Below, in pieces: positions 34,500 through 62,680 of a DNA stretch of 64,000 bases. Made by a program: the position numbers and the translations under genes. The stretch is from positions 1-64,000 of the forward strand of contig JAFRPH010000062.1 of assembly GCA_017429205.1 (NCBI GenBank), written 5' to 3'. The notes beneath the pieces are model-generated. The model was not told the origin of the DNA. It worked only from the letters and a program-made list of their open reading frames with translations, and ran no database searches. Numbering within the stretch: the stretch's first letter is position 1; every line of letters starts with the position of its first letter. Source of the stretch: Bacteroidales bacterium (GTDB lineage Bacteria; Bacteroidota; Bacteroidia; Bacteroidales; UBA932).

Positions 34500-34512
34500 A
34501 GGCAAAGAAAAA

Positions 34513-35465: not shown

Positions 35466-36266
35466 TTTCGGCTGCTTGCCGATGTAAGCGAGGATGCCGC
35501 CGTCCACATACAGGATGTGGCCGTTCACGGCGTCGGAGGCGTGGGAGGCGAGGAACACGGCGGGACCGCCGAGTTCGGACGGGTCGAGCCAGCGGCCGGC
35601 CGGGGTCTTCGCGCAGATGAAGCTGTCGAAGGGATGGCGGCTGCCGTCGGGCTGCCGCTCGCGCAGGGGAGCGGTCTGGGGCGTGGCGATGTAGCCGGGG
35701 CCGATGCCGTTGCACTGGATGTTGTACTCGCCGTACTCGGAGCAGATGTTGCGGGTGAGCATCTTCAGGCCGCCCTTCGCGGCGGCGTAGGCGCTCACGG
35801 TCTCGCGGCCGAGCTCGGACATCATCGAGCAGATGTTGATGATTTTGCCCTCGCGGCGCTCCATCATCTCAGGGAGCACGGCGGAGGAGACGATGAACGG
35901 GGCGACGAGGTCCACGTCGATGACGGCCTGGAACTCGGAGCGCTTCATCTCGTGCATCGGGATGCGCTTGATGATGCCGGCGTTGTTGACGAGGATGTCG
36001 ATCTGGCCCACCTCTTCGTGGATCTTCTCCACGAGGGCCTTCACGTCGTCTTCCTTGGTCACGTCGCACACGTACCCGTGCACGTTCGTGATGCCCGCTT
36101 CCTTATAGTTGTTCAGGCCCCGCTCCAGCGCGGCCTCGCTGATGTCGTTGAAGATGATGTTCCGGATGCCCGCCTCGACAAACGCCTTGGCGATGTTGAA
36201 ACCGATTCCGTAAGAAGCGCCGGTGATCCAGGCGTTCTTGCCTTCGAGGGAAAAAGGATTGGTCAT
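35463..36266 (-). CDS. kduD: 2-dehydro-3-deoxy-D-gluconate 5-dehydrogenase
   Basis: 267 residues from the ATG at 36266 (the longer frame would cross the operator and promoter). A short-chain dehydrogenase: cofactor loop TGASYGIGFNIA (about 15-26), LVNNAGII, NICSMMSELGRETVSAYAAAKGG with the Ser, Tyr and Lys of the active site, and a C-terminal VNGHILYVDGGILAYIG. KduD reduces 3-deoxy-hexodiulosonate to 2-keto-3-deoxygluconate. It is divergent from susC, with a palindromic operator in its promoter. Confidence 0.95.
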   Translation of the reverse strand: MTNPFSLEGKNAWITGASYGIGFNIAKAFVEAGIRNIIFNDISEAALERGLNNYKEAGITNVHGYVCDVTKEDDVKALVEKIHEEVGQIDILVNNAGIIKRIPMHEMKRSEFQAVIDVDLVAPFIVSSAVLPEMMERREGKIINICSMMSELGRETVSAYAAAKGGLKMLTRNICSEYGEYNIQCNGIGPGYIATPQTAPLRERQPDGSRHPFDSFICAKTPAGRWLDPSELGGPAVFLASHASDAVNGHILYVDGGILAYIGKQPK

Positions 36267-36303: not shown

Positions 36304-36334
36304 CAAAGATACAAACGTTTGTATTCATTTCAAA
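36304..36334 (-). promoter_or_regulatory. kduD promoter (-7 and -33)
   Basis: On the minus strand TTTG (36331-36334), a 19-nt spacer and TATCTTTG (36304-36311) match the full Bacteroidota consensus. The operator at 36309-36324 lies between and partly on them. Confidence 0.7.
36309..36324. promoter_or_regulatory. LacI-type operator in the kduD promoter
   Basis: ATACAAACGTTTGTAT is a perfect 16-bp palindrome with the central CG typical of LacI-family sites. The same 14-bp core occurs upstream of the LacI gene at 56011. It overlaps the kduD -7 box, so binding should repress. Confidence 0.75.
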
Positions 36335-36417
36335 ATCTTTCGGGGAAGAAAGGTCGATTTGTTACAAAACGGCTCGTCAGACGTGACGATGTGACATTTT
36401 ATCCCCTTATTTGTTAC

Positions 36418-36456
36418 ATACAAACGATTGCACCTTTAAATAAATCGCGACCTTTG
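36418..36456 (+). promoter_or_regulatory. susC promoter with degenerate operator
   Basis: ATACAAACGATTGCAC at 36418-36433 matches the kduD operator at 13 of 16 positions. A TTG at 36428-36430 and GACCTTTG at 36449-36456 (18-nt gap) are a plausible -33/-7 pair, so the site would cover the -33 element. The rest of 36267-36506 has no gene. Confidence 0.55.
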
Positions 36457-36506
36457 CAACAGCAACCACGGATTCTAACAATCAATCCAAATAACCAAAC
36501 AACTTT

Positions 36507-39500
36507 ATGAAAATGTCCAACACTCTCAAGCACGTCCTCCGGCTCGCCGCCGTGGGCGCGGCCCTGCTTTTCGGAGCGGAGGCCTTCGCCCAGACCGTGA
36601 GCGGCCAGGTCGTCGACACGGCGGGGCAGCCGGTCATCGGCGCCACCGTCATCGTGGACGGGACTACGAACGGAGTCGCCACCGACCTCGACGGCCGGTT
36701 CTCCCTCCGGGCTGCGGCCGGTTCTCCCGTCACCGTGACCATCATCGGCTACAAGGATGTCCACACCGTCCTCGCGCCCGGCATGGTCGTCACCCTCGAA
36801 GAGGACAACGAACTTCTGGATGAAGTCGTCGTCGTGGGTTACGGCACCGTGAAGAAGGAGTCCCTCTCCGGTTCCGTCGCCGTGGTCAAGGAAGAGATGC
36901 TCCAGGAAAAGGGAGCGCTCTCCAGCCCGGTGCAGGCCCTGCAGGGCCAGGTTCCCGGCGTGATCATCACCCGCGCCTCCTCCGCCCCTGGCGACGAGAG
37001 CTGGTCGATGTCGCTCCGCGGCGCCGTCTCCGCCAACAACTCCGAACCCCTCGTGATCATCGACGGGGTCGCCTATGACAGCGTCAACGCCCTCCGCCTG
37101 CTGAACTCCGACGATATCGCCTCGATGTCCTTCCTGAAGGACGCGGCGGCTTCCATCTACGGTTCCCGCGCGGCCGGCGGCGTCGTGCTCATCACCACCA
37201 AGAAAGGTGCCGCGGGCAAGGTGAAGGTCAGCTACAACGGCTCCGTCACGATGAAGACCGTCGGCCGCCTTCCTTCCCTGATGTCCCTGGACCAGTGGGC
37301 CGATTCCGTGATGACGGCCCTCGAGAATGACAACAACACCGCGCACACGTGGTACTACTACGCCCAGCTCGCCAAGCAGTACAAGGGCGGTTTCATCGAC
37401 CTGCAGAACCAGCCGAACCCCTACGGCACCACCGCCTTCACCGATGTCGAGGACTTCGTGTTCGACGACAAGGTGGACTGGTTCGGCTCCGTGTTCGGCA
37501 ACGCCTGGTCCACCAACCACGACCTGAGCGTCACCGGCGGTTCCGAGGCGGTCTCCTACCGTCTCTCCCTGGGCTATGCCTATGACGGCTCCCCGCTCCA
37601 GTACGGGCGCAACAACAACCAGCGCTACAACTTCCGCCTGAACAACACGTTCAAGATCACGTCCTGGTTCTCGATCGATTCCTCCATCGGCTACAACCGC
37701 CAGGACCAGATCGCCCCGGTGGACGTGGGCGCCCTCCTTTCCACGACGGTCCCGATGCCGGGTCTTCCGCTCTTCACCAAGGACGGCAAGGCCTACCGCT
37801 GGGGCACCTGGAACTCCCCGGCCGCCCAGGCCGAGTTCGGCGGCGACAACAAGCTGGCCGTCTCCGCCTTCACGCTCAGCGAGACGCTGAAGTTCCGCCT
37901 GGCCTCCTGGCTCGACGCCAACGTGAACCTCGGTTACAACACCGACACGGCGATGCGCAACAAGGACAACCATTCGGTTCCTTACTACAACTACACGGGC
38001 ACGAAGATGCTCGCCCTCAACCCGACGGCCGCCAACAGCTACTACGAGCAGACGGCCTCCCGGACCGACTTCTATTCCGCATCGGCCTACCTGAACGCCC
38101 ACAAGAACTTCGCCGATGCGCACAACACCAGCCTCACCCTCGGCACCCAGTACGAGTTCAAGGACTACCGCTACTTTGGCGCCCACGCGAAGGACATCCA
38201 GACCGGCCTCGAGGTCGTGAACGGCGCCGGTGACATCACCCTGGTGAGCCCGAACCGCTGGCAGTTCGCCGTGGCCTCCTTCTTCGGCCGCGCCAACTAC
38301 GACTACAAGTCCCGCTACCTCGTGGAACTCCAGGCCCGTTACGACGGCTCCTCCAAGTTCCTTCCGCAGAACCGCTGGGCCTTCTTCTGGGGCGGCTCCC
38401 TTGCCTGGCGCATCGCCCAGGAGCCTTTCCTGAAGGATGTCGAGTGGCTGGACGAGTTCAAGCTCCGCGCCTCCTACGGCGAGGTCGGTAACCAGAGCGG
38501 CATCGCCAACTACGACGGCGTGCAGCTGTACAACACGGCGGCTTCCACCGGCGCTCTCGTCGGCAATGGCCTCCTTTCCACCATCAGCACCAACGGTTCC
38601 TTCGCCTCCACGTCCCGTACCTGGGAGCGGATCAAGAACTACAACCTGGGTCTCGACTTCGGCTTCTTCGGCAACCGCCTCACCGGTACGGTGGAGGTCT
38701 TCCAGAAGAAGAACGACAACATGCTCGTGTCCATCGACTTCCCGTCCATCCTCGGCGACACCGCGCCGAAGGCCAACTCCGGCAAGTTCAAGGCCTGGGG
38801 TTACGAGGGCATGCTCAACTGGCGCCACCAGGTCAACCGCGACTTCGGCTACAACTTCGGCGGCACCTTCACCTTCGCCCGCAACCAGCTCGTCGACCTG
38901 GGCGGCCAGGCGACCGTGGTGAACAACCAGTTCGTCTCCAACCGCGAAGGCTATCCGCTGAACTCCCTGTTCGGCCTGCAGTACGGCGGCAAGATCACCA
39001 GCGATTCCGTCCGCGACGCCTACCTCGCCAAGTACTATGATGGCAACGGCATCGGCATGCCGAGCGAGCTCCGCCTCGGTGACAACATGTACGTCGACCA
39101 GAACGGCGACGGCAAGCTGGACATGAACGACTACGTGTACCTCGGCACCGACACGCCGGAAATCCAGTACTCCTTCAACGCCGGCGTCCAGTACAAGGGC
39201 TTCGACCTCGCCGTGATCTTCCAGGGCGCCGCCAACCGCATCATGTGGAACGGCATCAACAACTGGACGGTCCCGATGCGGGCCCTGTACACCAACACTT
39301 CCTCCTACACGATCGGAAATGTCTGGTCCGCCTCCAACCCGGACGGCTACTATCCGCCCTACACCTCCAACGGAAACATCAACAACTACAACTACCAGAC
39401 TTCCACCTGGTCGGTTTCCGACGGTTTCTATCTCCGTCTGAAGAACGTCACCCTGGGCTACAACCTGCCCGAGACGGCGGTCAAGCGCGTCGGCTTCATC

Positions 39501-39653
39501 TCCGGCCTTCGCCTCTTCTTCACCGGCACGGACCTCTGGGAGTACACCAAGGTCCTGGACGGCTGGGATCCGGAAGCCAAGAGCGCCCCGAGTTCCACCT
39601 CCCGGTATCCGTTCATGCGGGGTTACTCCTTCGGTGTCAACGTTACCTTCTAA
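36507..39653 (+). CDS. susC: SusC-family TonB-dependent outer-membrane transporter
   Basis: 1048 residues. Signal peptide to about 28 (AEAFAQT), carboxypeptidase-regulatory-like domain (VSGQVVDTAGQPVIGATV, about 30-110), the SusC mark DEVVVVGYGTVKKESLSGSV, plug domain (GVIITRASSAPGDESWSMSL, VIIDGVAYDS, DAAASIYGSRAAGGVVLITTK), then a 22-strand barrel ending YPFMRGYSFGVNVTF. It imports oligosaccharides with the SusD lid. An ATG two codons later is also possible. First gene of the main operon; symbol used for family, substrate not starch. Confidence 0.96.
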   Translation: MKMSNTLKHVLRLAAVGAALLFGAEAFAQTVSGQVVDTAGQPVIGATVIVDGTTNGVATDLDGRFSLRAAAGSPVTVTIIGYKDVHTVLAPGMVVTLEEDNELLDEVVVVGYGTVKKESLSGSVAVVKEEMLQEKGALSSPVQALQGQVPGVIITRASSAPGDESWSMSLRGAVSANNSEPLVIIDGVAYDSVNALRLLNSDDIASMSFLKDAAASIYGSRAAGGVVLITTKKGAAGKVKVSYNGSVTMKTVGRLPSLMSLDQWADSVMTALENDNNTAHTWYYYAQLAKQYKGGFIDLQNQPNPYGTTAFTDVEDFVFDDKVDWFGSVFGNAWSTNHDLSVTGGSEAVSYRLSLGYAYDGSPLQYGRNNNQRYNFRLNNTFKITSWFSIDSSIGYNRQDQIAPVDVGALLSTTVPMPGLPLFTKDGKAYRWGTWNSPAAQAEFGGDNKLAVSAFTLSETLKFRLASWLDANVNLGYNTDTAMRNKDNHSVPYYNYTGTKMLALNPTAANSYYEQTASRTDFYSASAYLNAHKNFADAHNTSLTLGTQYEFKDYRYFGAHAKDIQTGLEVVNGAGDITLVSPNRWQFAVASFFGRANYDYKSRYLVELQARYDGSSKFLPQNRWAFFWGGSLAWRIAQEPFLKDVEWLDEFKLRASYGEVGNQSGIANYDGVQLYNTAASTGALVGNGLLSTISTNGSFASTSRTWERIKNYNLGLDFGFFGNRLTGTVEVFQKKNDNMLVSIDFPSILGDTAPKANSGKFKAWGYEGMLNWRHQVNRDFGYNFGGTFTFARNQLVDLGGQATVVNNQFVSNREGYPLNSLFGLQYGGKITSDSVRDAYLAKYYDGNGIGMPSELRLGDNMYVDQNGDGKLDMNDYVYLGTDTPEIQYSFNAGVQYKGFDLAVIFQGAANRIMWNGINNWTVPMRALYTNTSSYTIGNVWSASNPDGYYPPYTSNGNINNYNYQTSTWSVSDGFYLRLKNVTLGYNLPETAVKRVGFISGLRLFFTGTDLWEYTKVLDGWDPEAKSAPSSTSRYPFMRGYSFGVNVTF

Positions 39654-39665
39654 TCCTGACGCGAT

Positions 39666-41378
39666 ATGAAAAGAATCATCAACATACTGAGCATCGCAGC
39701 CGCCGCCCTTTTCGCGTCCGCTTGCATGGACCTGTCCCCGAAAGCCCAGCTTTCCGACACGCAGGTCTGGTCCCAGGCCTCCAACTTCAGCCTGTTCGCC
39801 AACCAGTTCTATGGCTGGACCCGCGATTTCCAGGGTTCCGACTATATGTCGAGCTGGACGGACGGCGTCCATTCCGACACCCGTTCCGACCTCGTCGCCA
39901 CGCCCAACCTGAACGTGTACAGCGCCGGCTCCAACTCCATCCCTTCCACGGACGGCAACTACGGCACCCTGTACAAGCGCATCTACTACACGAACCTGCT
40001 GCTCAAGAACGCCGCGGAATTCGAGCCCAAGGCCGACATCGCCATCCCGATGGGCGAGGCCTATTTCTTCCGCGCCTACTTCTATTTCGAGCTCGTCCAA
40101 ATCTTCGGTGACGTCATCTACACCGACACGCCGCTGGACATGGATTCCGAGAAGCTGTACGGCAAGCGGAACGACCGCCTGGAGGTGATCCGCCACTGCG
40201 TGGACGACCTGAAGAAAGCCGTCGAGCTCCTTCCCGAGATGCCGACCGAGGACGGTCGCGTCGCGAAGGGCGCCGCCAACGCCTTCCTGAGCCGTGTCGC
40301 CCTGTACGAGGGCTCCTGGCAGAAGTTCCACAACAACAACGCTTCCGCCGCGAACGAGCTCTTCGCCACCGCCGCGGCCGCCGCGAAGGCTGTCATCGAC
40401 AGCAAGGCATACTCGCTCTTCTACAGCGACGCCCTCGGCGGGAAGGACAGCTACCGTTACATGTTCATCCTGGAGAACACCGACTGCAACCCGGCCAAGC
40501 TCACCAAAGCGGACAACAAGGAGTACATCTTCTCCCACCGCCACGACGAGGCCACGAAGAAGATCGGCACCAACATCACCCACGGCGCCCAGAACAGCGG
40601 TGTGTACGTGACCCGCAAGCTCGCGGACATGTACCGCTGCCAGGACGGCCTGCCGATCGCGAAGTCTCCCAAGTTCCAGGGCTACACCGGCCAGAACACC
40701 GAGTTCGCCGACCGCGACAACCGGATGAACGCCACCCTGCTCCGTCACGGCCAGAAGTACTGGAACAACGACGGCAAATGGCGCAACACTTGGACCGCCG
40801 CCGACGAGGAGGACGCTCTCACCTGCGACCGCCGCTCCCAGTCCGGCTACATCAACAACAAGTGGGCGACCGAGCGCAAGGTCGACGACACCAACGAAGG
40901 TTACGACTACCCGGTCATCCGCTATGCCGAAGTGCTCCTGAACTACGCCGAAGCCGTGTACGAGCAGGGCGAAAGCATCTCCGACGCCGACCTCGACCTC
41001 TCCCTGAACCTCGTCCGCCAGCGTTCCAATCCGGACATGGTGAAGCTCTCCAACAGCCTGGTTTCCGCCAACGGCCTGTCGATGCGGGAGGAGATCCGCG
41101 CCGAGCGCACCGTGGAACTCGCCCTCGAGGGCTTCCGCGTGGACGACCTCAAGCGCTGGAAGACCGCCGAGACCGAGATGCCGCAGAACCTGCGGGGCAT
41201 CCCGATGACCGGCTGGTTCGCCACCAACTGGACCAACCAGACCCGTCCGCTGGACGCCGACGGCAGCATCATCCTCTACGACGGCCGCGTGTGGGCCGAG
41301 AAGAACTATCTGTATCCGATTCCGAGCGACGAGCTGCAGCTCAACCCCGAGCTCGGTCAGAACAAAGGTTGGAACTAA
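39666..41378 (+). CDS. susD: SusD/RagB-family nutrient-binding lipoprotein
   Basis: 570 residues with lipobox Cys20 (FASACMDLSP). SusD_like N-terminal region and the tetratricopeptide-like helices (YFFRAYFYFELVQIFGDV, VAKGAANAFLSRVALYEG), then the RagB/SusD C-terminal domain (YPVIRYAEVLLNYAEAVYE, IRAERTVELALEGFRVDDLKRW, NYLYPIPSDELQLNP). It sits on the outer face of the SusC barrel and binds the oligosaccharide. 12 bp after susC. Confidence 0.95.
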   Translation: MKRIINILSIAAAALFASACMDLSPKAQLSDTQVWSQASNFSLFANQFYGWTRDFQGSDYMSSWTDGVHSDTRSDLVATPNLNVYSAGSNSIPSTDGNYGTLYKRIYYTNLLLKNAAEFEPKADIAIPMGEAYFFRAYFYFELVQIFGDVIYTDTPLDMDSEKLYGKRNDRLEVIRHCVDDLKKAVELLPEMPTEDGRVAKGAANAFLSRVALYEGSWQKFHNNNASAANELFATAAAAAKAVIDSKAYSLFYSDALGGKDSYRYMFILENTDCNPAKLTKADNKEYIFSHRHDEATKKIGTNITHGAQNSGVYVTRKLADMYRCQDGLPIAKSPKFQGYTGQNTEFADRDNRMNATLLRHGQKYWNNDGKWRNTWTAADEEDALTCDRRSQSGYINNKWATERKVDDTNEGYDYPVIRYAEVLLNYAEAVYEQGESISDADLDLSLNLVRQRSNPDMVKLSNSLVSANGLSMREEIRAERTVELALEGFRVDDLKRWKTAETEMPQNLRGIPMTGWFATNWTNQTRPLDADGSIILYDGRVWAEKNYLYPIPSDELQLNPELGQNKGWN

Positions 41379-41393
41379 ACAATGGACTGCGAT

Positions 41394-42974
41394 ATGAAAA
41401 AGTATATCATCCTCGTCGCCGCCGGCCTCGCCGCCCTCGCTTCCTGCCAGAAGAAGGAATCCTATGTGCTGGATTCCGTGGTGATGGCCAAGACCCTGGC
41501 ATTCACCTATTCCGACACCGACGCCGCGAAGTTCTACACGGATGAGAACGGATCGACCGTCTTCCCGATGGTCGTGGGCGAGTCCGTGGACTTCTCCTAT
41601 GCGGTGACTCCTTCCCTGGAGGAGCTCACCAACCCTGAGATCGTCTGGGCCTCCGGCGACCCTTCCGTCGCCACCGTGGACCAGAACGGCCACATCACCG
41701 CCGTGGGCGCCGGCACGACGTCCATCTCCATCGAGCACAAGCCGCGTAACCTCACCTGCCTGCCTTCCATCACCGTGAAGGTGTCCCAGACCCTGGTTCC
41801 CGCCACTTCCATCCAGATCATCGACGCCTCCGAAGGCGTGGACGAGATCTACGGCCTGCCGAAGGTCGCGGAAGGGGAGACGATGCAGATGAAGGCGGTC
41901 ATCACCCCGGAGGACGCCACCTACAAGACGGTTGTCTGGAGCGTGACGCCGGCCGCCAACGCCACCATCGACCCGGTCACCGGCCTGCTGCACGGTGTCG
42001 CCTACGGCAAGATCGAGGTCAAGGCCACGGCCCTGGACGGCAAGGGCGCCACCGCCACCCACGAGATGGTCGTGGACAAGATCATCGAGCCCACCGGCAT
42101 CAAGGTGGCCGAGAACAGCGTCATCCTCTCCGTCTCCGACGGCACCTATGAGCTTGGCTACGAGACCTATCCGGCCGTCTGCACCAAGTCCCGCCTGGTC
42201 TGGACCAGCTCCGACGAGGAAGTCCTGACCGTGAACAAGGGCGTCGTGACCATCAAGAAGTACGGCAAGGCCACGGTCACCGTGAGCACGCAGTCTTCCG
42301 AGGCCGCTCCCGCCGGCTATGTCTCCTCCGCCACCATCGAGGTGAACGTCCCGGCCGGCTTCTACCGCGAGCACAACGAGAATCCGGACCTGTGGATCAC
42401 CAAGACGAACGGTGCCACCAAGGAGCTCCGCATCAGCGACGCCGGCGAGCGCTACCTGTACATCGTCCCGAACAAGGCCAACGCCAATACCGGCCGCGGC
42501 GACTTCGGACACGCCGGCCAGACCTTCATCTCCAAGGAGTACCCGATCATCACCATCCGCGTGGACGACGTGAACGACCGCATGGACGAGAACGGCAAGG
42601 GCAAGTTCGCCCGCAACATCAACCTGGACACCTCCGGCACGGCCGAGGACGGCACCAAGTACTCCGGCAACTACGGCGGCTCCAACAACAAGTGGTTCAA
42701 GAAGTTCAAGTGCTCCGACGGCTCCGCGATCCTCGTGTACAGCCTCGTGGACCAGAACTGGCAGAACGGCACCGCCTTCCCGGAGAACACGGTGATCACC
42801 TTCACCACCTGGCAGCTGAAGTATGCGGACATCCGCAACTCCGACAAGGCCGATCTCCAGGACATCAACAACCTGTATTACAGATTCTTCTGGCATCACA
42901 CGTTCCGCTCGATGGATGAGATGAACGCCTATCTGCTCGAGTGGTCCAACAAGACCGGCATCACGTATGAATAG
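41394..42974 (+). CDS. Surface glycan-binding lipoprotein with Ig-like domains (SusE/F position)
   Basis: 526 residues from the ATG at 41394, with lipobox Cys18 (LASCQKK); the ATG 12 bp earlier gives a poorer signal. At least two bacterial Ig-like (BIG2) repeats are visible: VTPSLEELTNPEIVWASGDP with GHITAVGAGTTSISIE, and TPEDATYKTVVWSVTP with GLLHGVAYGKIEVKA, then a third-like stretch. The C-terminal 190 residues (DLWITKTNGATKELR onward) are an unrecognised beta domain, a likely glycan-binding module. Function inferred from position. Confidence 0.75.
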   Translation: MKKYIILVAAGLAALASCQKKESYVLDSVVMAKTLAFTYSDTDAAKFYTDENGSTVFPMVVGESVDFSYAVTPSLEELTNPEIVWASGDPSVATVDQNGHITAVGAGTTSISIEHKPRNLTCLPSITVKVSQTLVPATSIQIIDASEGVDEIYGLPKVAEGETMQMKAVITPEDATYKTVVWSVTPAANATIDPVTGLLHGVAYGKIEVKATALDGKGATATHEMVVDKIIEPTGIKVAENSVILSVSDGTYELGYETYPAVCTKSRLVWTSSDEEVLTVNKGVVTIKKYGKATVTVSTQSSEAAPAGYVSSATIEVNVPAGFYREHNENPDLWITKTNGATKELRISDAGERYLYIVPNKANANTGRGDFGHAGQTFISKEYPIITIRVDDVNDRMDENGKGKFARNINLDTSGTAEDGTKYSGNYGGSNNKWFKKFKCSDGSAILVYSLVDQNWQNGTAFPENTVITFTTWQLKYADIRNSDKADLQDINNLYYRFFWHHTFRSMDEMNAYLLEWSNKTGITYE

Positions 42975-44328
42975 GTTGGTTTGTATGCTGTTTGCAGCGG
43001 CTGCCCTCACGGGGGCGGCCGCCTGCAACAAGCTGCCCAAGCAGGGCGAAGTGGACCTCACTCCCGTCGAGAAGCCCGTTCCCGACGTGACGGTGAAGTT
43101 CAGCCACCCCGGCGCGTATGTCAATGCGGCCGACCTGGCCCGCGTGAAGCAGCACGTCGCCGCGGCGGACGCCAACGACCCGGTGTTCGCCTCCTGGAAG
43201 GAGCTGTGCAACAGCCCTTGGGCGCAGGACAACATCAAGCCCAGCGCGCTGGCCACCATCGTCCGGGGCGATCCCACGGGCACGGGTGTTTCCAGCGAGA
43301 ACTACATCCTCTGCGACCAGCAGGCGGCGGCGGCTTTCCAGCTCGCCCTGCGCTGGCAGGTCTCCGGGGACACGAAGTACGCCGAGGCGGCCCGCGCAAT
43401 CCTCAATGAATGGGCCGCCGTGTGCAAGAAGATCACGGCCAACGACAACAACCAGTACCTGCTGGCCGGTTTCCAGGGCTACACCTTCGCCAATGCCGCG
43501 GAACTCCTGCGGAGCTATTCCGGCTGGTCCGCGTCCGAGCAGAATACCTTCGGAAAGTGGCTCCGGGATGTCTGGTATGCGAAGAACTACTGGTTTATCG
43601 AGAACCACGGCGGATCCGGCGTGTGCGACCTGCACTACTGGTCCAACTGGGAGCTCTGCAACCTGGCCTCCATCCTCGCCATCGGCATCTACCTGGAGGA
43701 CCAGGAGATGGTGAACTACGTGAACAAGCAGTTCCTGTCCGGAAAGGGGAGCGGGGCCGTGAAGAACCTGGTTCCCTATGACCCCATCGCGGATCCTTCC
43801 GGCAAGTCCGCCTTCATCGCCCAGTGCATGGAGTCGGGCCGCGACCAGGGGCACGCCACCCTGTGCGTGTCCGAGACCGCCGAGCTGTGCCGGATGGCGC
43901 AGAACGTGGGCCTGGACTTCTGGGGCGCCGAGAACAACCGCGTACTGGCTTTCTTCGAGTACGAGGCCAAGTACAACGTGAAGCAGAACGGCACGTTCAT
44001 CACGACCTCGATGCCTTTCACCGAGTACAAGTACTGCGTGGACTGCTCCTGCTCCAACCACAGCCACGGCGCGACCCATACGGCGGTTTCCGCCGACGGC
44101 CGCGGCAAGGAACGTCCGGGTTGGGATCTCATTTACATGCATTACATCAAGGAGAAGAAGCTCGCGGCGAACAATTGCTACTACACGAAGCTCTTCGCCC
44201 AGCAGCTCCGCTTCCGGGACGGGAAACTGACCGGTGACGGCGGGGCCGGCGACAGCCGTTACGGCTCCACCAGCGCGGCCTTCGACCAGATCGGCTGGGG
44301 CACCCTCCTCTTCTACCAGGGCGAGTGA
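42967..44328 (+). CDS. Alginate-lyase-fold polysaccharide lyase (PL38-like) lipoprotein
   Basis: 453 residues with lipobox Cys20 (TGAAACNK). The alpha/alpha-toroid alginate-lyase domain shows QYLLAGFQGYTFANAAELL, WFIENHGGSGVCDLHYWSNW and the motif ESGRDQGHA (Glu289-Ala297), a key feature of PL38-type lyases; W-rich helices follow. Such lyases cut uronate chains by beta-elimination to give 4,5-unsaturated ends. PL38 activity has been reported on glucuronan; the target here is not proven. Overlaps the glycan-binding gene by 8 bp. Confidence 0.75.
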   Translation: MNRLVCMLFAAAALTGAAACNKLPKQGEVDLTPVEKPVPDVTVKFSHPGAYVNAADLARVKQHVAAADANDPVFASWKELCNSPWAQDNIKPSALATIVRGDPTGTGVSSENYILCDQQAAAAFQLALRWQVSGDTKYAEAARAILNEWAAVCKKITANDNNQYLLAGFQGYTFANAAELLRSYSGWSASEQNTFGKWLRDVWYAKNYWFIENHGGSGVCDLHYWSNWELCNLASILAIGIYLEDQEMVNYVNKQFLSGKGSGAVKNLVPYDPIADPSGKSAFIAQCMESGRDQGHATLCVSETAELCRMAQNVGLDFWGAENNRVLAFFEYEAKYNVKQNGTFITTSMPFTEYKYCVDCSCSNHSHGATHTAVSADGRGKERPGWDLIYMHYIKEKKLAANNCYYTKLFAQQLRFRDGKLTGDGGAGDSRYGSTSAAFDQIGWGTLLFYQGE

Positions 44329-46250: not shown

Positions 46251-48026
46251 ATGCGTATTGTCACCCTCATATTGGCCGCGCTGCTGCCACTCGGCGCTTC
46301 CGCCCAAGTAGAATGGTTTCCGCTGAAGGACGTCCGGCTGCTGGACAGTCCCTTCAAGGAGAACCAGGAGCGCTCGGGCGCCTGGCTCAGGAGCATCGAC
46401 GTGAACCGGCTCCTGCACAGCTTCCGCACGACGGCAGGCGTCTGGGCCGGAAATGAGGGAGGCTATATGACCGTGAAGAAGCTCGGCGGCTGGGAATCGC
46501 TCGACTGCGAGCTCCGCGGGCATACCACCGGACACGTGCTGAGCGCCTGCGCGCTCCAGTACGCATCGACCGGAGATTCCGCCTTCAAGGCGAAAGGGGA
46601 CAGCCTGGTCCTCGGGCTTCGGGAGGTGCAGCTTGCCCATGGAAACGGCTACCTGAGCGCTTTCCCGGAGGAACTGATCAACCGGAACATCCGGGGCGAG
46701 CGGGTCTGGGCCCCGTGGTACACCCTGCACAAGATTCTCGCCGGGCTCATCGACCAGTATGAACTGGCGGGCTCGGAACTGGCCCTGACGGAGGCCCTGG
46801 ATATGGCCCATTGGGCGCAGGCGAAGCTCTCCGGTCTGTCGGAGGAAACCCGCCGGCTGATGCTCCGCAACGAGTTCGGCGGCATCCCCGAGGCCTGGTG
46901 GAACCTGTATGGCATCACCCGGGACGAGGCATGCCGATGGCTGGCGGAGTTCTTCTACCACGACGACGTCATCGACCCGCTGAAGGCGCAGAAGGCCGAT
47001 TTCGGGACGAAACATACGAACACCTTCATTCCCAAGGTGATCGCCGAGGCGCGCCGGTACGAACTGACGGGCTCGGAGGACTCCCGGACGGCCGTCACGT
47101 TCTTCTGGGACCAGATGCTCGCGCATCACATCTATGCGACGGGCAGCCTGTCCGACAAGGAGCATTTCTTCGATCCGGCCGACTTCCGGAACCACGTCAC
47201 CGGCGTGACGGGGGAGAGCTGCTGCACGTACAACATGCTGCGGCTGGCCCGCCATATCGTCGCCTGGACCGGGGACGCTTCCGTGATGGACTATTACGAG
47301 CGGGCGCTCTGCAACCATATCCTGGGCTCGCAGAATCCCCGGACCGGGATGGCCGCCTATTTCCTGCCGCTCGCCAGCGGGACGCACAAGGTGTACAGCA
47401 CCCCGTACGACTCCTTCTGGTGCTGCGTGGGCAGCAGCTTCGAGTCGCACGCCAAGTATGCGGAAAGCATTTATGCCCACGCGGGGAATACGCTCTATGT
47501 GAACCTCTTCATCCCGTCCACCCTGGATTGGGACGGGTTCAAGGTCCGTCTGGAGTCCGCTTTCCCGGCCGATGGGGAAGTGACGCTCACAGTGGAGACG
47601 CCGGGAATGCGGGAAATCGCTTTCCGCCGGCCTTCCTGGAGCGCCGCGCCCGTCGTGAAAGTGAACGGCCGTCGGGTGAAAGTGACGGGAACGTCGTACC
47701 TGACGCTCCGCCGGAACTGGAAGGCGGGCGACCGGATCAGCGTTTCGTATCCGATGACCTACCACGTGGAACCTGCGTTGCAGGATGCCACGCTCGGGGT
47801 GGTGATGCGCGGCCCGCTGGTGCTGGCCCTTCCGCTGGGAACGGAGGGCTTCGAGCCTCCGCAACCCGTATCGGACCCCGCCAAATACAACGATTATTAC
47901 ACTTACGATTATCATATTCCCGGTTCCATGCTGGGGTTCCAGGACTTGCCTCGTGATTTCACGGCGCTGAAACCCCTGTGGAGCCTGCATGAGGAGCGTT
48001 ACGAAGTTTATTGGGAACTGCCATGA
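46251..48026 (+). CDS. GH127/GH146 beta-L-arabinofuranosidase-like enzyme
   Basis: 591 residues with signal peptide (1-18). The DUF1680-type toroid has GHTTGHVLSACALQYAST, VTGESCCTYNMLRLARH (Glu322, Cys324) and DSFWCCVGSSFESH (Cys391, Cys392), which give the zinc-cysteine active site of GH127/GH146. The family removes beta-L-arabinofuranose from plant glycans. The stop of GH97 and this start touch. An exported enzyme of the main operon; points to an arabinose-bearing substrate. Confidence 0.88.
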   Translation: MRIVTLILAALLPLGASAQVEWFPLKDVRLLDSPFKENQERSGAWLRSIDVNRLLHSFRTTAGVWAGNEGGYMTVKKLGGWESLDCELRGHTTGHVLSACALQYASTGDSAFKAKGDSLVLGLREVQLAHGNGYLSAFPEELINRNIRGERVWAPWYTLHKILAGLIDQYELAGSELALTEALDMAHWAQAKLSGLSEETRRLMLRNEFGGIPEAWWNLYGITRDEACRWLAEFFYHDDVIDPLKAQKADFGTKHTNTFIPKVIAEARRYELTGSEDSRTAVTFFWDQMLAHHIYATGSLSDKEHFFDPADFRNHVTGVTGESCCTYNMLRLARHIVAWTGDASVMDYYERALCNHILGSQNPRTGMAAYFLPLASGTHKVYSTPYDSFWCCVGSSFESHAKYAESIYAHAGNTLYVNLFIPSTLDWDGFKVRLESAFPADGEVTLTVETPGMREIAFRRPSWSAAPVVKVNGRRVKVTGTSYLTLRRNWKAGDRISVSYPMTYHVEPALQDATLGVVMRGPLVLALPLGTEGFEPPQPVSDPAKYNDYYTYDYHIPGSMLGFQDLPRDFTALKPLWSLHEERYEVYWELP

Positions 48027-49189
48027 AAGGAATGATGAAACCGCTTTGTTTTGCTGCCGGCCTCGTGCTGGCGGCAGCCTGCGCCCGGCCGGTCTCCCTG
48101 GCCGACGAAGCGTTGGACTACTGCGTCAAGAAGGTGACCGGCGTCCAGGAACGGCTCGGCGCCGATTACGGCGAGTCGCCGCGCAACATCGCGCCGGGAG
48201 ACTGCCGCTGGAACCTGACGCCCGTGTGCCAGGAGAACTGGACGATGGGCTTCTGGCCGGGCATCCTCTGGTATGCGTACGAGGCTTCCGGCGATGCCGC
48301 GCTGGAGACCGCCGCGCGTGGTTACACGGAGGCGCTGGACTTCATCGCCCGGCAGCCGGCCTATGACCACGACATCGGCTTCATCATGTTCCCTTCCTTC
48401 GGCAACGGGTTCCGGCTGACCGGCGACCCGGCGTACAAGGAGGCGGTGCTCGCCACGGCGGAGCGCCTCGCCGCCCTGTTCAATCCGGCGGTGGGCACCA
48501 TCCTGAGCTGGCCTCGCGAAGTGCCCAATTTCGGCGGGCACAACACCATCATGGACAACATGCTCAACCTGGAAACGCTGTTCTGGGCCGCTGAGAACGG
48601 GGGAGACCCTGCATGGAAGGACATCGCGGTCACCCACGCCGATACGACGATGCGCTACAACTTCCGCCCGGACGGAACCTCCTACCACGTGGCGGTGTTC
48701 GACGCGGAGACCGGCGCCTACCGGTACAGTTGCACCCACCAGGGCTATGCCGACGACTCGATGTGGGCCCGCGGCCAGGCCTGGGGCATCTATGGATACA
48801 CGATGGTGTACCGCTTCACCCGGGAACCCCGTTTCCTGGAGTTCGCGCAGAAGATTGCGGACGTCTACCTGGCCCGCCTGCCGGAGGACAAGGTGCCATA
48901 CTGGGATTTCTGCGACCCGGAGATTCCGAACGCCTCCAAAGACGCTTCCGCCGCGGCCGTTGTGGCATCGGCTTTGCTGGAACTTTCCACGTATACCGAC
49001 GGAAAGTACCGTGCCGAAGCCGAAGCCATGCTCCGTTCCCTGTATGAGAACTATCGCGCCCCGGAAGGGTGCGACAGTTTCCTCCTGCACTCCACCGGCC
49101 ATCATCCGGCCGGCAAGGAGATCGACTACAGCATCGTCTATGCCGATTATTATTTCATCGAAGCGCTGCTCAGACTGAAGAACTTATGA
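48023..49189 (+). CDS. GH88 unsaturated glucuronyl hydrolase lipoprotein
   Basis: 388 residues from the ATG at 48023 (ATGA overlap with the upstream stop), lipobox Cys18 or nearby (LAAACARP). GH88 marks: ENWTMGFWPGILWYAYE, GHNTIMDNMLNLE (Asp178), THQGYADDSMWARGQAWG and the ending SIVYADYYFIEALLRL. These enzymes remove the 4,5-unsaturated uronate at the non-reducing end of lyase products. This fits the two lyase-like proteins on either side and feeds KduI/KduD. Confidence 0.92.
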   Translation: MKGMMKPLCFAAGLVLAAACARPVSLADEALDYCVKKVTGVQERLGADYGESPRNIAPGDCRWNLTPVCQENWTMGFWPGILWYAYEASGDAALETAARGYTEALDFIARQPAYDHDIGFIMFPSFGNGFRLTGDPAYKEAVLATAERLAALFNPAVGTILSWPREVPNFGGHNTIMDNMLNLETLFWAAENGGDPAWKDIAVTHADTTMRYNFRPDGTSYHVAVFDAETGAYRYSCTHQGYADDSMWARGQAWGIYGYTMVYRFTREPRFLEFAQKIADVYLARLPEDKVPYWDFCDPEIPNASKDASAAAVVASALLELSTYTDGKYRAEAEAMLRSLYENYRAPEGCDSFLLHSTGHHPAGKEIDYSIVYADYYFIEALLRLKNL

Positions 49190-51537
49190 GACGAATCCTC
49201 CTTCTTGCCCTGCTTGCGGCCGGCCTGCTGACGCCGGCCCTGGCCCAGGACGGCTCCTACAAGATGGCCGGCCCCTACGAGGTCGTGGCCCGCGACGGAC
49301 AGTACGCCAAGACCAAAGGCGGCAGCGAAAAGGACATGTGGCAGGCCTGGCAGTGCGCCAAGGCCGGCGAGGACGCCAAGGCGCTGGAAATCATCAACGC
49401 CTATGCCGGGACTTTGCAGCGTTTCGACGGCCACGACGCGCCGCTGTGCCTGATTCAGGCCTACTGGATGCTCCGTGGCATGATCATCCTGAAGGATCGG
49501 CAGACGCCGGCGTGGAGCGAGATGGTGCGCCGCGCCATCCTGCCCGTGATCGACCGTTTCGAGGCTTACAGCCCCTACGCCAACGGCAACTGGGGGCATA
49601 TCGTGAACCGCTGCCGGATGGCGTGCGGCATCTTCCTGGACGACAAGGAGCTGTATCAGCACGCGGTCGACGTCTATCTCCACGCGAAGGACGACGGCTC
49701 GCTGCCGGGCTATGTGGCCGAGAGCGGCCAGTGCCAGGAGACGGGGCGCGACCAGGGCCACGCGCAGCTGGGCCTGGGGGCGATGTGCGAGATCTGCGAG
49801 ATGGCCTGGGAGCAGGGCGACGACCTATGGGGCGCCCTGGACAACCGCCTGATGAAGGGCATCGAATATACGGCCAAGTACAATCTGGGGAATGACGTCC
49901 CCTTCGAGACCTGGACCGACTGGACCGGCCTGTACAACGACTGGACGGAGCCGGGGGAGATGGGCCGCGGCCGCATCCGTTGCATCTACGACCTTCCTTA
50001 TGCCCATTATGTGGGCCGGAAGGGCCTGAAAATGCCTTATGCCAAGAAAGTCCTGGCCCTGCAGGCCAAGGCGGAGAAGAACGGCGAGATGACGCGCAAT
50101 CCCGAGGCCGACCAGTTCTCGGTGAAGGGCGTGAAGGAAGGGGCCAAGCTCCATTCGATCTTCACGTATCCCGCCCCGGAAGGCGCTCCCTTGAAGCACG
50201 ATTACGAGGTGTATCTCCAGCCGCGCGGCCACCAGGAATGGACCCGGATCGACACCTATATGGCCAAGGTCAATGCGCCGGTAGGGGACAACAAGCACAA
50301 GGTCAGCGAGATTTCCTACTGCTTCTTCGATTTCACCGGCGATGTCAATGTGCGCGTGGTTACGAAGAACAAGAAGTTCACCTCGGCCCGCGTCCGCCCG
50401 GACTACCGCGGCTGCATCGCCCAGGTGAAGAACGACTCCACCGTGCAGTTCCTCCTGTTCCAGCCGGAAAATGTGAGCGTCGAGTTCGACGGCGACATCA
50501 CCGACAACCTGCTGGTGTTCACCTCCAAGCCGCCGGTGAGCCAGGAAGAAGCCCGGGAGGAGGCCGAGGCCACCGGCCGCAGCTTCCACTGCTATGGGCC
50601 CGGTTTCTATCCCGACGAAACCATTCCCGTCCCCTCCAACACCGTCGTCTATCTGGCCGGCGGAAGCTATTTCGCGGGAACCTTCGCCATCGAGGATGCG
50701 GAAAATGTCAAAATCCTGGGGCGCGGCGTCGCCCGCCCGGCTTCCGGCTATGAGGGCTGCCACATCTATCGGTCGAAGAATGTCGTGGTCGACGGGCTCA
50801 TTGTCAATACCTGCCCGATCGGCGAGTCGTCGAACGTGACCGTCCACGACGTCCGGAGCATCTCCCACCCGTCGTGGGGCGACGGCCTGAACGTGTTCGG
50901 CGGCTGCTCGGACATCCTCTTCGACCGCGTCTTCTGCCGAAATTCCGACGACTGCACCACGGTCTATGCCACCCGGAAAGGCTTCAGCGGCAGCGTCCGG
51001 AACGTCCGGATGACCAATTCCACGCTTTGGGCCGATGTCGCCCATCCGATCATGATCGGCATCCACGGCAATCCCGAAGTGGGGGATGTCATCGAAGGCC
51101 TCCGCTACGACAACCTGGACATCCTGGGCCAGTTCGAGCCGCAGGTGGAGTACCAGGGCTGCATGACCATCAACTGCGGGGACGGCAACCTCGTCCGCGA
51201 CGTCGTCTTCGACAACATCCGCATCGAGCAGATCGGCACCGGATCCCTTTTCCAGGTGCGCGTGGGCTGGAACAGCAAGTATTGCACGGCTCCCGGCGGC
51301 GGCATCGAGAACGTCCTGTTCCGGACCATCCGCTATTACGGGAACGGAACTGGGATGTCGGTCATCAGCGGGTATGACGCGGACCACAAGGTCCGGAATG
51401 TCACCTTCGAGGACTTGCGGATCAACGGGGTCAAGATTTACGACCAGATGCCCGGCAAGCCCGCCTGGTACGCCACCGGCGATTATGTTCCAATGTACGT
51501 GGGCTCGCACGTCGAGGGACTCAAATTCCTTCCGTAA
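49186..51537 (+). CDS. Fusion of PL38-like alginate-lyase domain and GH28-like beta-helix
   Basis: 783 residues, signal peptide 1-20 (LLTPALAQ). The first 330 residues are an alginate-lyase toroid (SPYANGNWGHIVNRCRMACG, ETGRDQGHAQ with Arg188-Asp189-Gln-Gly-His192). Residues about 370-470 are a beta linker. The last 300 form a right-handed beta-helix (NTVVYLAGGSYFAGTFAIED, IYRSKNVVVDGLIVNTCP) with SWGDGLNVFGGCSDILF and CRNSDDCTTVYA, placed like the D and DD acids of GH28-type enzymes. Both halves may be active. ATGA overlap with GH88. Length far above either family alone. Confidence 0.8.
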   Translation: MRRILLLALLAAGLLTPALAQDGSYKMAGPYEVVARDGQYAKTKGGSEKDMWQAWQCAKAGEDAKALEIINAYAGTLQRFDGHDAPLCLIQAYWMLRGMIILKDRQTPAWSEMVRRAILPVIDRFEAYSPYANGNWGHIVNRCRMACGIFLDDKELYQHAVDVYLHAKDDGSLPGYVAESGQCQETGRDQGHAQLGLGAMCEICEMAWEQGDDLWGALDNRLMKGIEYTAKYNLGNDVPFETWTDWTGLYNDWTEPGEMGRGRIRCIYDLPYAHYVGRKGLKMPYAKKVLALQAKAEKNGEMTRNPEADQFSVKGVKEGAKLHSIFTYPAPEGAPLKHDYEVYLQPRGHQEWTRIDTYMAKVNAPVGDNKHKVSEISYCFFDFTGDVNVRVVTKNKKFTSARVRPDYRGCIAQVKNDSTVQFLLFQPENVSVEFDGDITDNLLVFTSKPPVSQEEAREEAEATGRSFHCYGPGFYPDETIPVPSNTVVYLAGGSYFAGTFAIEDAENVKILGRGVARPASGYEGCHIYRSKNVVVDGLIVNTCPIGESSNVTVHDVRSISHPSWGDGLNVFGGCSDILFDRVFCRNSDDCTTVYATRKGFSGSVRNVRMTNSTLWADVAHPIMIGIHGNPEVGDVIEGLRYDNLDILGQFEPQVEYQGCMTINCGDGNLVRDVVFDNIRIEQIGTGSLFQVRVGWNSKYCTAPGGGIENVLFRTIRYYGNGTGMSVISGYDADHKVRNVTFEDLRINGVKIYDQMPGKPAWYATGDYVPMYVGSHVEGLKFLP

Positions 51538-51538
51538 T

Positions 51539-52741
51539 ATGTTCCGCAAGGTCATTCTCTTCCTGCTTGCTGTGCTCCCGCTCGCCGCGGGGGCGCAGCC
51601 GCATTTTGACTACGCCGCCGGCGAGCCGGGAAGCCGGGCGTACCTGCGTCTCCCGCAAGGCGCTTCCGAGGTCAAGGCGGTGCTCTACTGTCACCAGAAC
51701 ATGACGGAGGAAGTGCTGTTCCGGAGCGAGCCTTTCTGCCGGGAAATGGACCGGCTGGGCGTGGCGATGGCCTTCGTCCAGCGCGGCTCCCAGAACTGGG
51801 ACCCGGCGACGGACTGCCAGTCACGCTTCGAGGCGCTGATGGCCGATTTCGCCCGGGGGACGGGGCATCCGGAAATCGCTTCGGCACCCATCATCCCGTT
51901 CGGCCATTCCGCGCAGGCGACCTTCCCGTGGAACTTCGCCGCCTGGAATCCGGAGCGGACCCTGTGCATCATCTCCTACCACGGGGATGCGCCCCGCACG
52001 AACCTGTGCGGGTACGGGCGCGCCAACGTGGAATGGGGGAGGACCCGGAACATCGACAGGATTCCGGGCCTGATGATAATGGGCGAGTATGAGTGGTGGG
52101 AGGCGCGCCTGCTGCCGGCCCTGGCTTTCCGGATGATGTATCCCGACAGCCGCATTTCCTTCCTTTGCGACGCTGGCAGGGGACATTTCGACCTGTGCCC
52201 CGAGACGCAGGATTATATTGCCAAGTTCATCGAAAAGGCCCTGCAGAATCCCCGGCCGGAAGGTGGCGTGTATTTCTCGCGCTGGTATGAGGACGGGCAC
52301 GAGACGATGGATCCGCACGAGCAGTTCTGGTATCCTGACGAGGAGATGGTCCGTCTGGCCCGCGCCCGGTACGCGGCCGTCCGGGGCAAGCGGATGCAGT
52401 ATCTGTCCGCACGCGTGAATGGGGAACTGCTGGTCTATGACCCGGACAAGCACATCAAGATGAATGCGACGGTCCTGGGGGATACTTTCACGGTGGAGCC
52501 GGTCTTTGTCGATGAGACCAGGAACGCGCCGGGTGGCGACCACGCCGCCGTCCGCCCCCGTGTCGTGCTCATTTCCGGCCCCGCCATCCAGACAGGGGAA
52601 TACACCTTCCGCATCGACCCGGATTACTTCGGGACGGATCCCGAGCGCCTGTGGTCGGGCATTACTATATGCGTGGAGGCCGACGGCGACGCTTTCTTCA
52701 AGCCCGCCGTCCAGGAACTGAACCTGCAGGTGCGGAAGTGA
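51539..52741 (+). CDS. Secreted alpha/beta hydrolase with C-terminal beta domain
   Basis: 400 residues from the ATG at 51539, signal peptide about 1-20. Residues 20-250 look like an alpha/beta hydrolase: KAVLYCHQNMTEEVLF, nucleophile elbow FGHSAQATF, and LCDAGRGHFDLCP with a candidate His. About 290-400 is a beta-rich tail. A carbohydrate esterase role is likely from context; the substrate is unknown. Last gene of the susC operon, 2 bp after the fusion gene and convergent with the second GH97. Confidence 0.7.
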   Translation: MFRKVILFLLAVLPLAAGAQPHFDYAAGEPGSRAYLRLPQGASEVKAVLYCHQNMTEEVLFRSEPFCREMDRLGVAMAFVQRGSQNWDPATDCQSRFEALMADFARGTGHPEIASAPIIPFGHSAQATFPWNFAAWNPERTLCIISYHGDAPRTNLCGYGRANVEWGRTRNIDRIPGLMIMGEYEWWEARLLPALAFRMMYPDSRISFLCDAGRGHFDLCPETQDYIAKFIEKALQNPRPEGGVYFSRWYEDGHETMDPHEQFWYPDEEMVRLARARYAAVRGKRMQYLSARVNGELLVYDPDKHIKMNATVLGDTFTVEPVFVDETRNAPGGDHAAVRPRVVLISGPAIQTGEYTFRIDPDYFGTDPERLWSGITICVEADGDAFFKPAVQELNLQVRK

Positions 52742-52753
52742 CGGCTTGCCGGT

Positions 52754-54739: not shown

Positions 54740-54757
54740 AAGGAATAACGATTTGCA

Positions 54758-54809
54758 CAAAGATAGCAAGAAAGACTTGAACAAGCTATCCGGTTTTTTC
54801 GTATCTTTG
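54758..54809. promoter_or_regulatory. Divergent -7 boxes for GH97 and thioredoxin-like genes
   Basis: The minus strand has TATCTTTG at 54758-54765 (19 nt before the GH97 ATG) and the plus strand has TATCTTTG at 54802-54809 (17 nt before the thioredoxin-like ATG). Confidence 0.6.
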
Positions 54810-54825
54810 TCAAAATTTGCTGAAA

Positions 54826-55917
54826 ATGAAAAAGATTATCATTGCTCTTCTGGCGGTGATGGCGACCGTGGGGTGCGCCAACGATACCGCAAAGTATGCC
54901 ATCAGCGGCACGGGCCTCGAGGACGGCGCCCAGGTGCTTCTGGTAGACCAGATTACCGGCGAGGCCATCGACACGGCCGTCGTCGCGAACGGCGCTTTCG
55001 CTTTTAAGGGCAAGGCTCCGAAGGATGCCTTCCTGAACATCACCTCCGACAAGTCCAATTGGAGTTTCATGCTCTTCAATGACGGCAAGCCCATCCAGGT
55101 GAACTATGCTGACAATACCCTCCAGGGTTCCGACCTCAATAACAAGCTCGCCGAATGCGATGCGAAGACCGATGCCATGATGCAGGAATACAACGCCTTC
55201 GTGTCTGAGCTGATGAAACTTCCCGAAGAGGAAATAGATGCGAAGGAGAAGGAGTATGACGCCTGGATTGAAAAACTTCGCGACTGCTACCTCGGCGTTG
55301 TCGAGGAGAATAAGGACAACCTGATTCCGGTCGCTTTCATCCGGAACGTCCGTTCCCTGGCCGGTCCGGACAAGTTCAATGAGCTGCTGGCATCGGATGC
55401 CGTGTTCGCCCAGCATCCGTATGTGCTCGACCTCAAGCGCAAGATTGACGAATCCGTCGCCCGCCAGAAGGAAGCCGAGGAGAAGAAGCAGGCCATCATC
55501 GGCCAGAAGTTCCTCGACCTCGAGGAGGCCGATCCGGACGGCAACCTGCACAAGCTGAGCGAGTACGTGGGCCAGGGCAAGTGGGTCCTCGTCGATTTCT
55601 GGGCCTCCTGGTGCGGCCCCTGCAAGGCGGAGATGCCCAATGTGGTCAACGCCTATGCGAAGTATCACGACAAGGGATTCGAGGTCGTGGGCCTGTCCTT
55701 CGACCGCGAGAAGGAACCCTGGGTGGAAGCCATCAAGGAATGGGAGATGCCCTGGATCCACCTCTCCGATCTCAAGTACTGGAAGACCGTCGCCTCCGAT
55801 GTGTACAATGTCAATTCCATCCCGGACAACTTGCTGATCGATCCGGAAGGAACCGTCGTCGCCCGCTGCCTCCGCGGTGATGCCCTCGAGGCCAAGCTGG
55901 CCGAGATTTTCAAATAG
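54826..55917 (+). CDS. TlpA-like thiol-disulfide oxidoreductase lipoprotein (DUF4369 + thioredoxin)
   Basis: 363 residues from the ATG at 54826, lipobox Cys17 (ATVGCAND). N-terminal DUF4369-like domain (KYAISGTGLEDGAQVLL, about 22-130), coiled helix linker (about 160-205, KRKIDESVARQKEAEEKK), then a thioredoxin/AhpC-TSA domain with DFWASWCGPCKAEMP (CGPC) and IPDNLLIDPEGTVVA. Reduces or oxidises disulfides in exported proteins. Own promoter and a strong terminator, so independent of the sugar genes. Confidence 0.9.
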   Translation: MKKIIIALLAVMATVGCANDTAKYAISGTGLEDGAQVLLVDQITGEAIDTAVVANGAFAFKGKAPKDAFLNITSDKSNWSFMLFNDGKPIQVNYADNTLQGSDLNNKLAECDAKTDAMMQEYNAFVSELMKLPEEEIDAKEKEYDAWIEKLRDCYLGVVEENKDNLIPVAFIRNVRSLAGPDKFNELLASDAVFAQHPYVLDLKRKIDESVARQKEAEEKKQAIIGQKFLDLEEADPDGNLHKLSEYVGQGKWVLVDFWASWCGPCKAEMPNVVNAYAKYHDKGFEVVGLSFDREKEPWVEAIKEWEMPWIHLSDLKYWKTVASDVYNVNSIPDNLLIDPEGTVVARCLRGDALEAKLAEIFK

Positions 55918-55926
55918 TCTGATGAT

Positions 55927-55953
55927 AGCCCGGCCGCCCGCCGGGCTTTTTTC
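55927..55953 (+). terminator. Rho-independent terminator of the thioredoxin-like gene
   Basis: AGCCCGGC and GCCGGGCT form an 8-bp stem followed by TTTTTT; it separates the gene from the LacI operon. Confidence 0.8.
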
Positions 55954-55962
55954 GGAAAGTTT

Positions 55963-55978
55963 GTACAAACGTTTGTAT
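55963..55978. promoter_or_regulatory. LacI-type operator upstream of the LacI gene
   Basis: GTACAAACGTTTGTAT contains the 14-bp perfect palindrome TACAAACGTTTGTA, identical to the core of the kduD site. It covers the TTTG (55972-55975) that serves as the -33 element of the LacI gene, which suggests self-repression. Confidence 0.75.
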
Positions 55979-62618: not shown

Positions 62619-62680
62619 AGTGGTTTCCGCTCGCAAATCTGCGAATAATAATTTGACTTTCCAAGAAAAAACGGAAAAAT

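Follow-up and report, generated by a model that had tools for sequence, protein, structure and literature searches.

The window analysed here is a stretch of 64,000 nucleotides (positions 1 to 64,000, forward strand, of contig JAFRPH010000062.1, assembly GCA_017429205.1) from a Bacteroidales bacterium of the UBA932 lineage. It carries a locus with genes predicted to act in the uptake and breakdown of uronates, in which one palindrome recurs in front of kduD, susC and a LacI-family regulator gene (lacI). The following features were distinguished:

36310..36323, no strand: predicted operator 1, TACAAACGTTTGTA, 43 bases 5' of the kduD ATG; the -7 box shares its final TA, and kduD sites of relatives stand in the same register
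36304..36311, minus strand: kduD -7 box TATCTTTG, overlapping the end of operator 1; consensus TAnnTTTG, as described for Bacteroides (PMC7366714)
36419..36432, no strand: predicted operator 2, TACAAACGATTGCA, 74 bases 5' of the susC ATG; identical in the sister genome G001, with exact sites at two other susC genes (G050, G073)
55964..55977, no strand: predicted operator 3, TACAAACGTTTGTA, 33 bases 5' of the lacI ATG, its TTTG at the -33 place; an autosite is found at 21 of 22 fetched orthologues
56011..57012, plus strand: LacI-family regulator of 333 amino acids, proposed binder of all three sites; Pfam LacI helix-turn-helix and Peripla_BP_3; its presence tracks the motif
57014..58051, plus strand: kdgK-like PfkB sugar kinase, probably 2-keto-3-deoxygluconate (KDG) kinase; the best NCBIfam models are of the KDG-kinase type, below their cut-offs
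58061..58723, plus strand: kdgA, 2-keto-3-deoxy-6-phosphogluconate/4-hydroxy-2-ketoglutarate (KDPG/KHG) aldolase; NF005499 over cut-off
58726..61569, plus strand: protein with GH43 and glucuronyl-esterase domains (GH43-CE15; domain match), last of the lacI run; a site precedes the homologue in some relatives
35463..36266, minus strand: kduD-like SDR (short-chain dehydrogenase/reductase) family dehydrogenase; best NCBIfam name gluconate 5-dehydrogenase, kduD by context
34587..35432, minus strand: kduI, 5-dehydro-4-deoxy-D-glucuronate isomerase; NF002091 over cut-off
33645..34505, minus strand: DUF4861 protein, encoded third, behind kduD and kduI; relatives have these three genes together as well
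36507..52741, plus strand: susC-susD run with PF05426 lyase-like, GH97, GH127 and GH88 genes (domain matches)

The regulator encoded at 56011 combines a LacI helix-turn-helix domain (PF00356, E 9.5e-14, over the cut-off) with a periplasmic-binding-protein-like effector domain (PF13377 and PF00532, both over the cut-off). Unsaturated uronates are produced by lyases and set free by GH88 enzymes; by an established pathway, KduI, KduD, KdgK and KdgA would convert them to pyruvate and glyceraldehyde 3-phosphate. The names kduD and kdgK rest partly on context. The spacing of the genes suggests that the susC run is a single operon. The start of kduD was taken as the ATG at 36266, while the mechanically called open reading frame starts at a TTG at 36314, inside the palindrome; the kduD matches of many homologues also begin at ATG 36266, where the query itself began, so that a longer start stays possible. 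At the far end of the window, an open reading frame at 62770-63954 (minus strand), used at first as a landmark, was rejected as the antisense shadow of a GH28 polygalacturonase-like gene (62812-64000, plus strand) that runs off the window end.

The palindrome TACAAACGTTTGTA has 14 bases and a central CG. The earlier note on this DNA had placed a perfect core at 36309-36324 and 55963-55978 and a 13-of-16 match before susC at 36418-36433; all three copies are present, and these coordinates are 16-base frames round the 14-base core. In the 14-base frame the susC copy has two mismatches to TACAAACGTTTGTA (12 of 14 bases). With up to three mismatches, the window holds three matches against 0.48 expected from dinucleotide shuffles, three being reached in one of 100 shuffles. 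The GC content is 62% for the window and 38% for the kduD-susC gap; AT-rich gaps favour such matches, and the comparative tests described below therefore weigh more than the window count. The same gap holds another repeat, TTTGTTACA, which, with both directions counted, is confined to 36358 and 36410 within the 64 kb and is possibly an activator site.

The primary-sigma consensus of Bacteroides is given as TAnnTTTG at -7 with TTTG near -33, the -33 motif being reported in the same study as not found in Flavobacterium (PMC7366714). At kduD, the box TATCTTTG starts 12 bases past the start of the palindrome, so that the -7 box takes its TA from the end of the palindrome. At lacI, TATCTTTG starts at offset 32 and the TTTG of the palindrome falls at the -33 place, and at susC a poorer box, GACCTTTG, with a bad first letter, stands at offset 30 and an ATTG at the -33 place. 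The earlier statement that the sites lie on or beside -33/-7 elements is thus accurate for kduD (-7), lacI (-33) and susC (-33, with a poorer -7 box). Among exact sites in relatives, the -7 box lies at offset 12 in 29 rows and at offset 32 in 21, i.e., in 50 of 62 rows (60 distinct stretches, two susC stretches being counted under two labels); the stretches are related by descent and the counts carry no probability. There are accordingly two registers, 20 bp apart, in which the operator supplies either the TA of the -7 box or the TTTG at the -33 place, and this position mainly on one of the two boxes is as expected of a repressor.

The scan was extended to the nearest genome (G001), to 61 genomes of the genus and to other relatives. 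Genome G001 (3.1 Mb) has 34% of the sampled 31-letter words of the window in common with it, and contains only two exact sites, at kduD and lacI. It also has two sites with two mismatches. One is the susC copy; the other, on contig C21, precedes a further susC-susD locus, which includes a GH67-domain gene. Exact TRCAAACGTTTGYA was found in 13 of the 61 genus genomes, at 28 places, compared with four places for a reversed control pattern in the same genomes. Orthologues of the regulator (58-99% identity, the next best match being 36%) occur in 14 of the 61, and the exact motif is present in 13 of these 14 and in none of the 47 genomes without the regulator (Fisher p 2e-12, for counts that are not phylogenetically independent); the remaining genome, G023, has a one-mismatch site, TACAATCGTTTGTA, before lacI. 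The kinase gene kdgK is more widespread (44 of 61 genomes, including all 14 with the regulator), and 30 genomes have it without regulator and motif. An autosite (0-1 mismatch, at most 130 bases upstream) precedes lacI in 21 of the 22 fetched orthologues with upstream sequence, a count that leaves out L020, which is cut off; the exception is L023, where other coding sequence precedes lacI and kduD has the site.

The genes beside the sites point in the same direction. In 32 LacI-bearing genomes 65 exact sites were collected (two genomes, G064 and G075, coincide with G004 and G035, and their five exact places were excluded beforehand; a region of G020 present on two contigs was not collapsed) and labelled by the genes that start between 110 bases before and 200 bases after the centre of the site, counted towards the gene. 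Near the starts of lacI, kduD, GH28, GH43-CE15, PL10, uxaC, sugar kinase or susC genes lie 62 of the 65. Genes of the set taken from the window label 58, 57 of them with lacI, kduD, GH28 or GH43-CE15; the site G071:C22:324 is labelled by a thioredoxin-like gene only, but a cut kduD is also there, which brings the 62 to 63. Five sites are labelled only by genes added post hoc, namely a PL10 pectate lyase and a PfkB kinase (both G047), uxaC (G021) and susC (G050 and G073); these labels, whose identities come from Pfam and SusC similarity, are weaker evidence.

The same contrast was seen when kduD was taken as the starting point. From 35 kduD places found, 30 with loci were examined, 11 from LacI-bearing genomes and 19 from genomes without the regulator. 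A site with at most two mismatches lies within 250 bases in eight of the 11 versus two of the 19, and an exact one in five of the 11 versus none of the 19. In two of the LacI-bearing exceptions, G021 and G023, kduD stands directly behind a site-bearing lacI.

In the wider order, 16 of 119 genomes, G001 included, have a LacI match at E 1e-60 or better. Outside G001, kduI directly follows lacI in six of 16 loci (G111, G089, G146, G142, G160 and G125). The core CAAWCGWTTG lies at most 120 bases before lacI in six of the 16 (G111, with exact TACAAACGTTTGTA, G089, G125, G088, G113 and one of two G178 copies) and was not found within that distance in the other ten, G146, G142 and G160 among them; in G106 and G117, CAAACGTTTG stands somewhat further upstream of lacI. 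One lacI from a different family of the order (46% protein identity) has exact TACAAACGTTTGTA in front of it and is followed by kduI and kduD.

On this comparative evidence, we consider that the palindrome is the operator of the LacI protein encoded at 56011-57012, a repressor of the KdgR kind coordinating the three promoters, with a probability of roughly 0.88. The proposal of the earlier note that a single LacI regulator controls uptake, uronate conversion and its own operon is likewise supported by the co-occurrence, the neighbouring genes and the registers. From these observations, and from the positions and conservation of the sites, we infer binding, repression, an effector and the operon extents along the following lines. 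Without uronate intermediates, a LacI dimer would occupy the core promoters of three units (kduD-kduI, the susC-led locus and the lacI-kdgK-kdgA-(GH43-CE15) operon that encodes the repressor itself), blocking RNA polymerase at the -7 box of kduD and at the -33 place of lacI and susC. Following import and cleavage of oligouronides, a cytoplasmic intermediate (our guess is KDG or a keto precursor) would bind the periplasmic-binding-like domain; the repressor would be released, and uptake, ketouronate steps and kinase/aldolase steps would rise together.

Several observations weigh against this reading. The relatives are not independent samples. With up to two mismatches, G001 has four places for the motif and four for the reversed control, i.e., no excess. 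Two of the 65 exact sites, both in G074, have no target gene: one, at a contig end, is possibly a lacI promoter, since the lacI contig of this genome also breaks inside its promoter; the other, an exact TGCAAACGTTTGTA at G074:C15:44605 (about position 5606 of L151), has no labelled gene next to it, and about 1.1 kb downstream the gene for elongation factor G begins. Only 17 of 30 one-mismatch sites are at labelled genes; the other 13 look like background, because the reversed control with at most one mismatch gives 16 places in 14 genomes and 21 places in 21 genomes. The expectation of the earlier note that genome-wide hits would sit only before uronate or pectin genes is supported by the exact sites, those of G001 and 62 of the 65 in relatives, with the two sites of G074 as exceptions. 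Genome G020 has a regulator of the 56011 type, yet no site before kduD, and two genomes without it, G018 (L200) and G043 (L198), have CGCAAACGTTTGTA, with one mismatch, before kduD. The susC site, finally, is a two-mismatch copy with a poor -7 box whose direct conservation is seen in one close sister only, and constitutes weaker evidence than the kduD and lacI sites.

The last point leads to the most probable alternative, in which the lacI and kduD sites are real operators and the susC site at 36419 is a chance match or relic, susC being run by another factor, e.g., a reader of TTTGTTACA. Besides the two mismatches, the poor box and a background equal to the signal at that stringency, the confinement of TTTGTTACA to two places in the kduD-susC gap speaks for it. 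In favour of an operator are the placement of the site (74 bases from the susC start, an ATTG being at the -33 place) and the other susC genes, those of G050 and G073, that have an exact site in front. In G106 (L221) and G113 (L218), which belong to other families, a related lacI is divergent from susC and a CAAWCGWTTG core lies in the gap that the two share. Aligned sites also occur in three species before susC-susD loci divergent from a hybrid two-component system (HTCS) gene: exact in G073, CAATCGTTTG in G001 and CAAACGATTG in G004, the last two each with one perfect half of the ten-base core. These loci (L157, L108) include a GH67-domain gene after susD in G001 and a GH115 gene after the HTCS gene in G073. 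The two-mismatch site on contig C21 of G001, judged background at first, was kept as likely because the corresponding place before homologous susC genes is taken by an exact site (G073) or a variant (G004). A flanking-motif search for the C21 promoter matched seven of 61 genomes, with a homologous promoter in G001 and G004 only; in both G001 and G073, a sequence similar to TTTGTTACA, namely TTGTTACAT, stands next to the operator of the HTCS-linked susC. The LacI-type operators of these HTCS-divergent susC-susD loci suggest joint control by the HTCS and the uronate repressor. On balance, we regard a susC promoter outside the reach of the regulator as unlikely.

Far less probable is the binding of the palindrome by another regulator, either the second LacI-family protein of the window (LacI2; 61566-62750) or a non-LacI protein. 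The sites of G018 and G043 belong here: each of these genomes has a single, distant LacI protein (25-29% identical), and this is the clearest result against exclusivity, so that comparable sites may belong to another factor or be relics. A Thermus regulator, described in the only paper that matched the 12-mer, binds a nearly identical 14-mer, which means that the sequence alone does not name the binder. On the other side, the two LacI-family genes of G001 both lie in this locus, and LacI2 has candidate palindromes of its own: TTACCGTGCACGGAAA at 62740-62755 and a weaker copy at 62677-62692 (one and three mismatches, respectively, to a palindrome idealized by eye), both between LacI2 and the divergent GH28 gene and upstream of the likely LacI2 ATG, which we place near 62618. 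They are probably the operators of LacI2, which would read another motif. Furthermore, the co-occurrence is with the LacI of 56011, and genomes G005 and G047 have one LacI-family gene each, of this type, yet two and three exact sites (at 72 and 84% completeness, respectively, further LacI-family genes could be hidden). It is very improbable that no repressor is involved and that the palindrome is a promoter element, a structural element or mere chance, since, although it includes TTTG and TA, letters of Bacteroidales promoter boxes, the exact motif is absent from all 47 genus genomes without LacI, and the reversed control gives four places against 28.

Operators of the KdgR-like repressor may also lie within coding sequence. 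In six genomes (G005, G012, G020, G082, G058 and G078), GH28 has a site 52-61 bases before its start and a second one at +66 to +72, just behind the lipoprotein cysteine, spelled AAA CGT TTG (Lys-Arg-Leu; L079, L088, L094, L106, L154 and L159), with 0-1 mismatches in four genomes and two in two. Given the amino acids, these codons are jointly expected at 0.0002-0.0018 by the codon usage of the gene stretches, from which signal-peptide codons may differ. Other second sites in GH28 lie at +37 in another frame (G021) and at +4 with two mismatches (G047). Against the generality of this arrangement, the GH28 genes of the LacI-bearing genomes G001, G004, G052, G055, G023 and G050 and of the window have no site with up to three mismatches in the stretch searched; the GH28 gene is the neighbour of LacI2 in the window and likewise in G001 and G004. 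DNA looping from one operator to the other was judged less likely, as a protein of 333 amino acids leaves little room for a LacI-type tetramer tail of the usual length; a roadblock or independent occupancy is preferred.

In its broadest form, the proposal would be that operator and promoter are one element, in which the TTTG of the operator serves as the -33 box or its terminal TA starts the -7 box in registers about two helical turns apart, that some GH28 genes have a second operator inside their coding sequence, and that one intracellular uronate repressor gates catabolism, pectinases of the cell surface and even glycan loci linked to an HTCS, by means of composite promoter-operators combined with a roadblock or paired operators. 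We give this generalization even odds. Bacteroidales susC loci are usually thought to be controlled by dedicated sensors, e.g., HTCS or SusR. Here, a cytoplasmic sugar-acid repressor appears to reach susC loci directly, which would tie import to the capacity to burn uronates; through one repressor site, the cell would turn the import and the degradation of acidic plant sugars on or off jointly. The result is a precise, testable operator/regulator pair for uncultured rumen bacteria that degrade pectin, and the relatives that have or lack the regulator form a natural comparison set.

Among known systems, CcpA and PurR resemble the regulator in domain order (CcpA aligned over the DNA-binding and hinge parts, PurR matched) and differ in being distant in sequence. 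Both bind CG-centred palindromes and are global or purine regulators with other effectors. Operators of the LacI family are described as even palindromes, mostly with a central CG, and autoregulation was reported for 72% of the LacI regulators studied (Ravcheev 2014, PMC4052901); the candidate operator, which goes with its regulator, is a 14-bp palindrome with a central CG. UxaR and UxuR of Bacteroides, the galacturonate and glucuronate regulators, act on the same sugar class and lie with KdgR on one LacI branch according to that study (PMC4052901), whereas the predicted targets here belong mainly to the ketouronate/KDG steps and include uxaC in one genome (G021). The closest counterpart is KdgR itself (BT0487, LacI family), for which a glucuronate/galacturonate regulon was predicted in Bacteroides (Ravcheev 2013, PMC3878776); besides this study, no published description of the regulon was found, as judged from titles and abstract openings. 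Both regulators belong to the LacI family and the order Bacteroidales, and both are tied to uronate/KDG catabolism by prediction from palindromic operators. The sites at kduD, lacI-kdgK-kdgA, uxaC, GH28 and PL10 in relatives would fit control of such genes. The lineage studied here is uncultured and largely composed of rumen Bacteroidales, as opposed to Bacteroides for KdgR. The 2013 study describes a limited number of periplasmic or extracellular proteins in the KdgR regulon and four others (PMC3878776), whereas the sites found here reach susC, GH28, PL10 and uxaC in different relatives, KdgR being compared by its published description only. The comparison of genomes thus points to a well-conserved KdgR-like LacI regulon that is apparently wider than the known kind.

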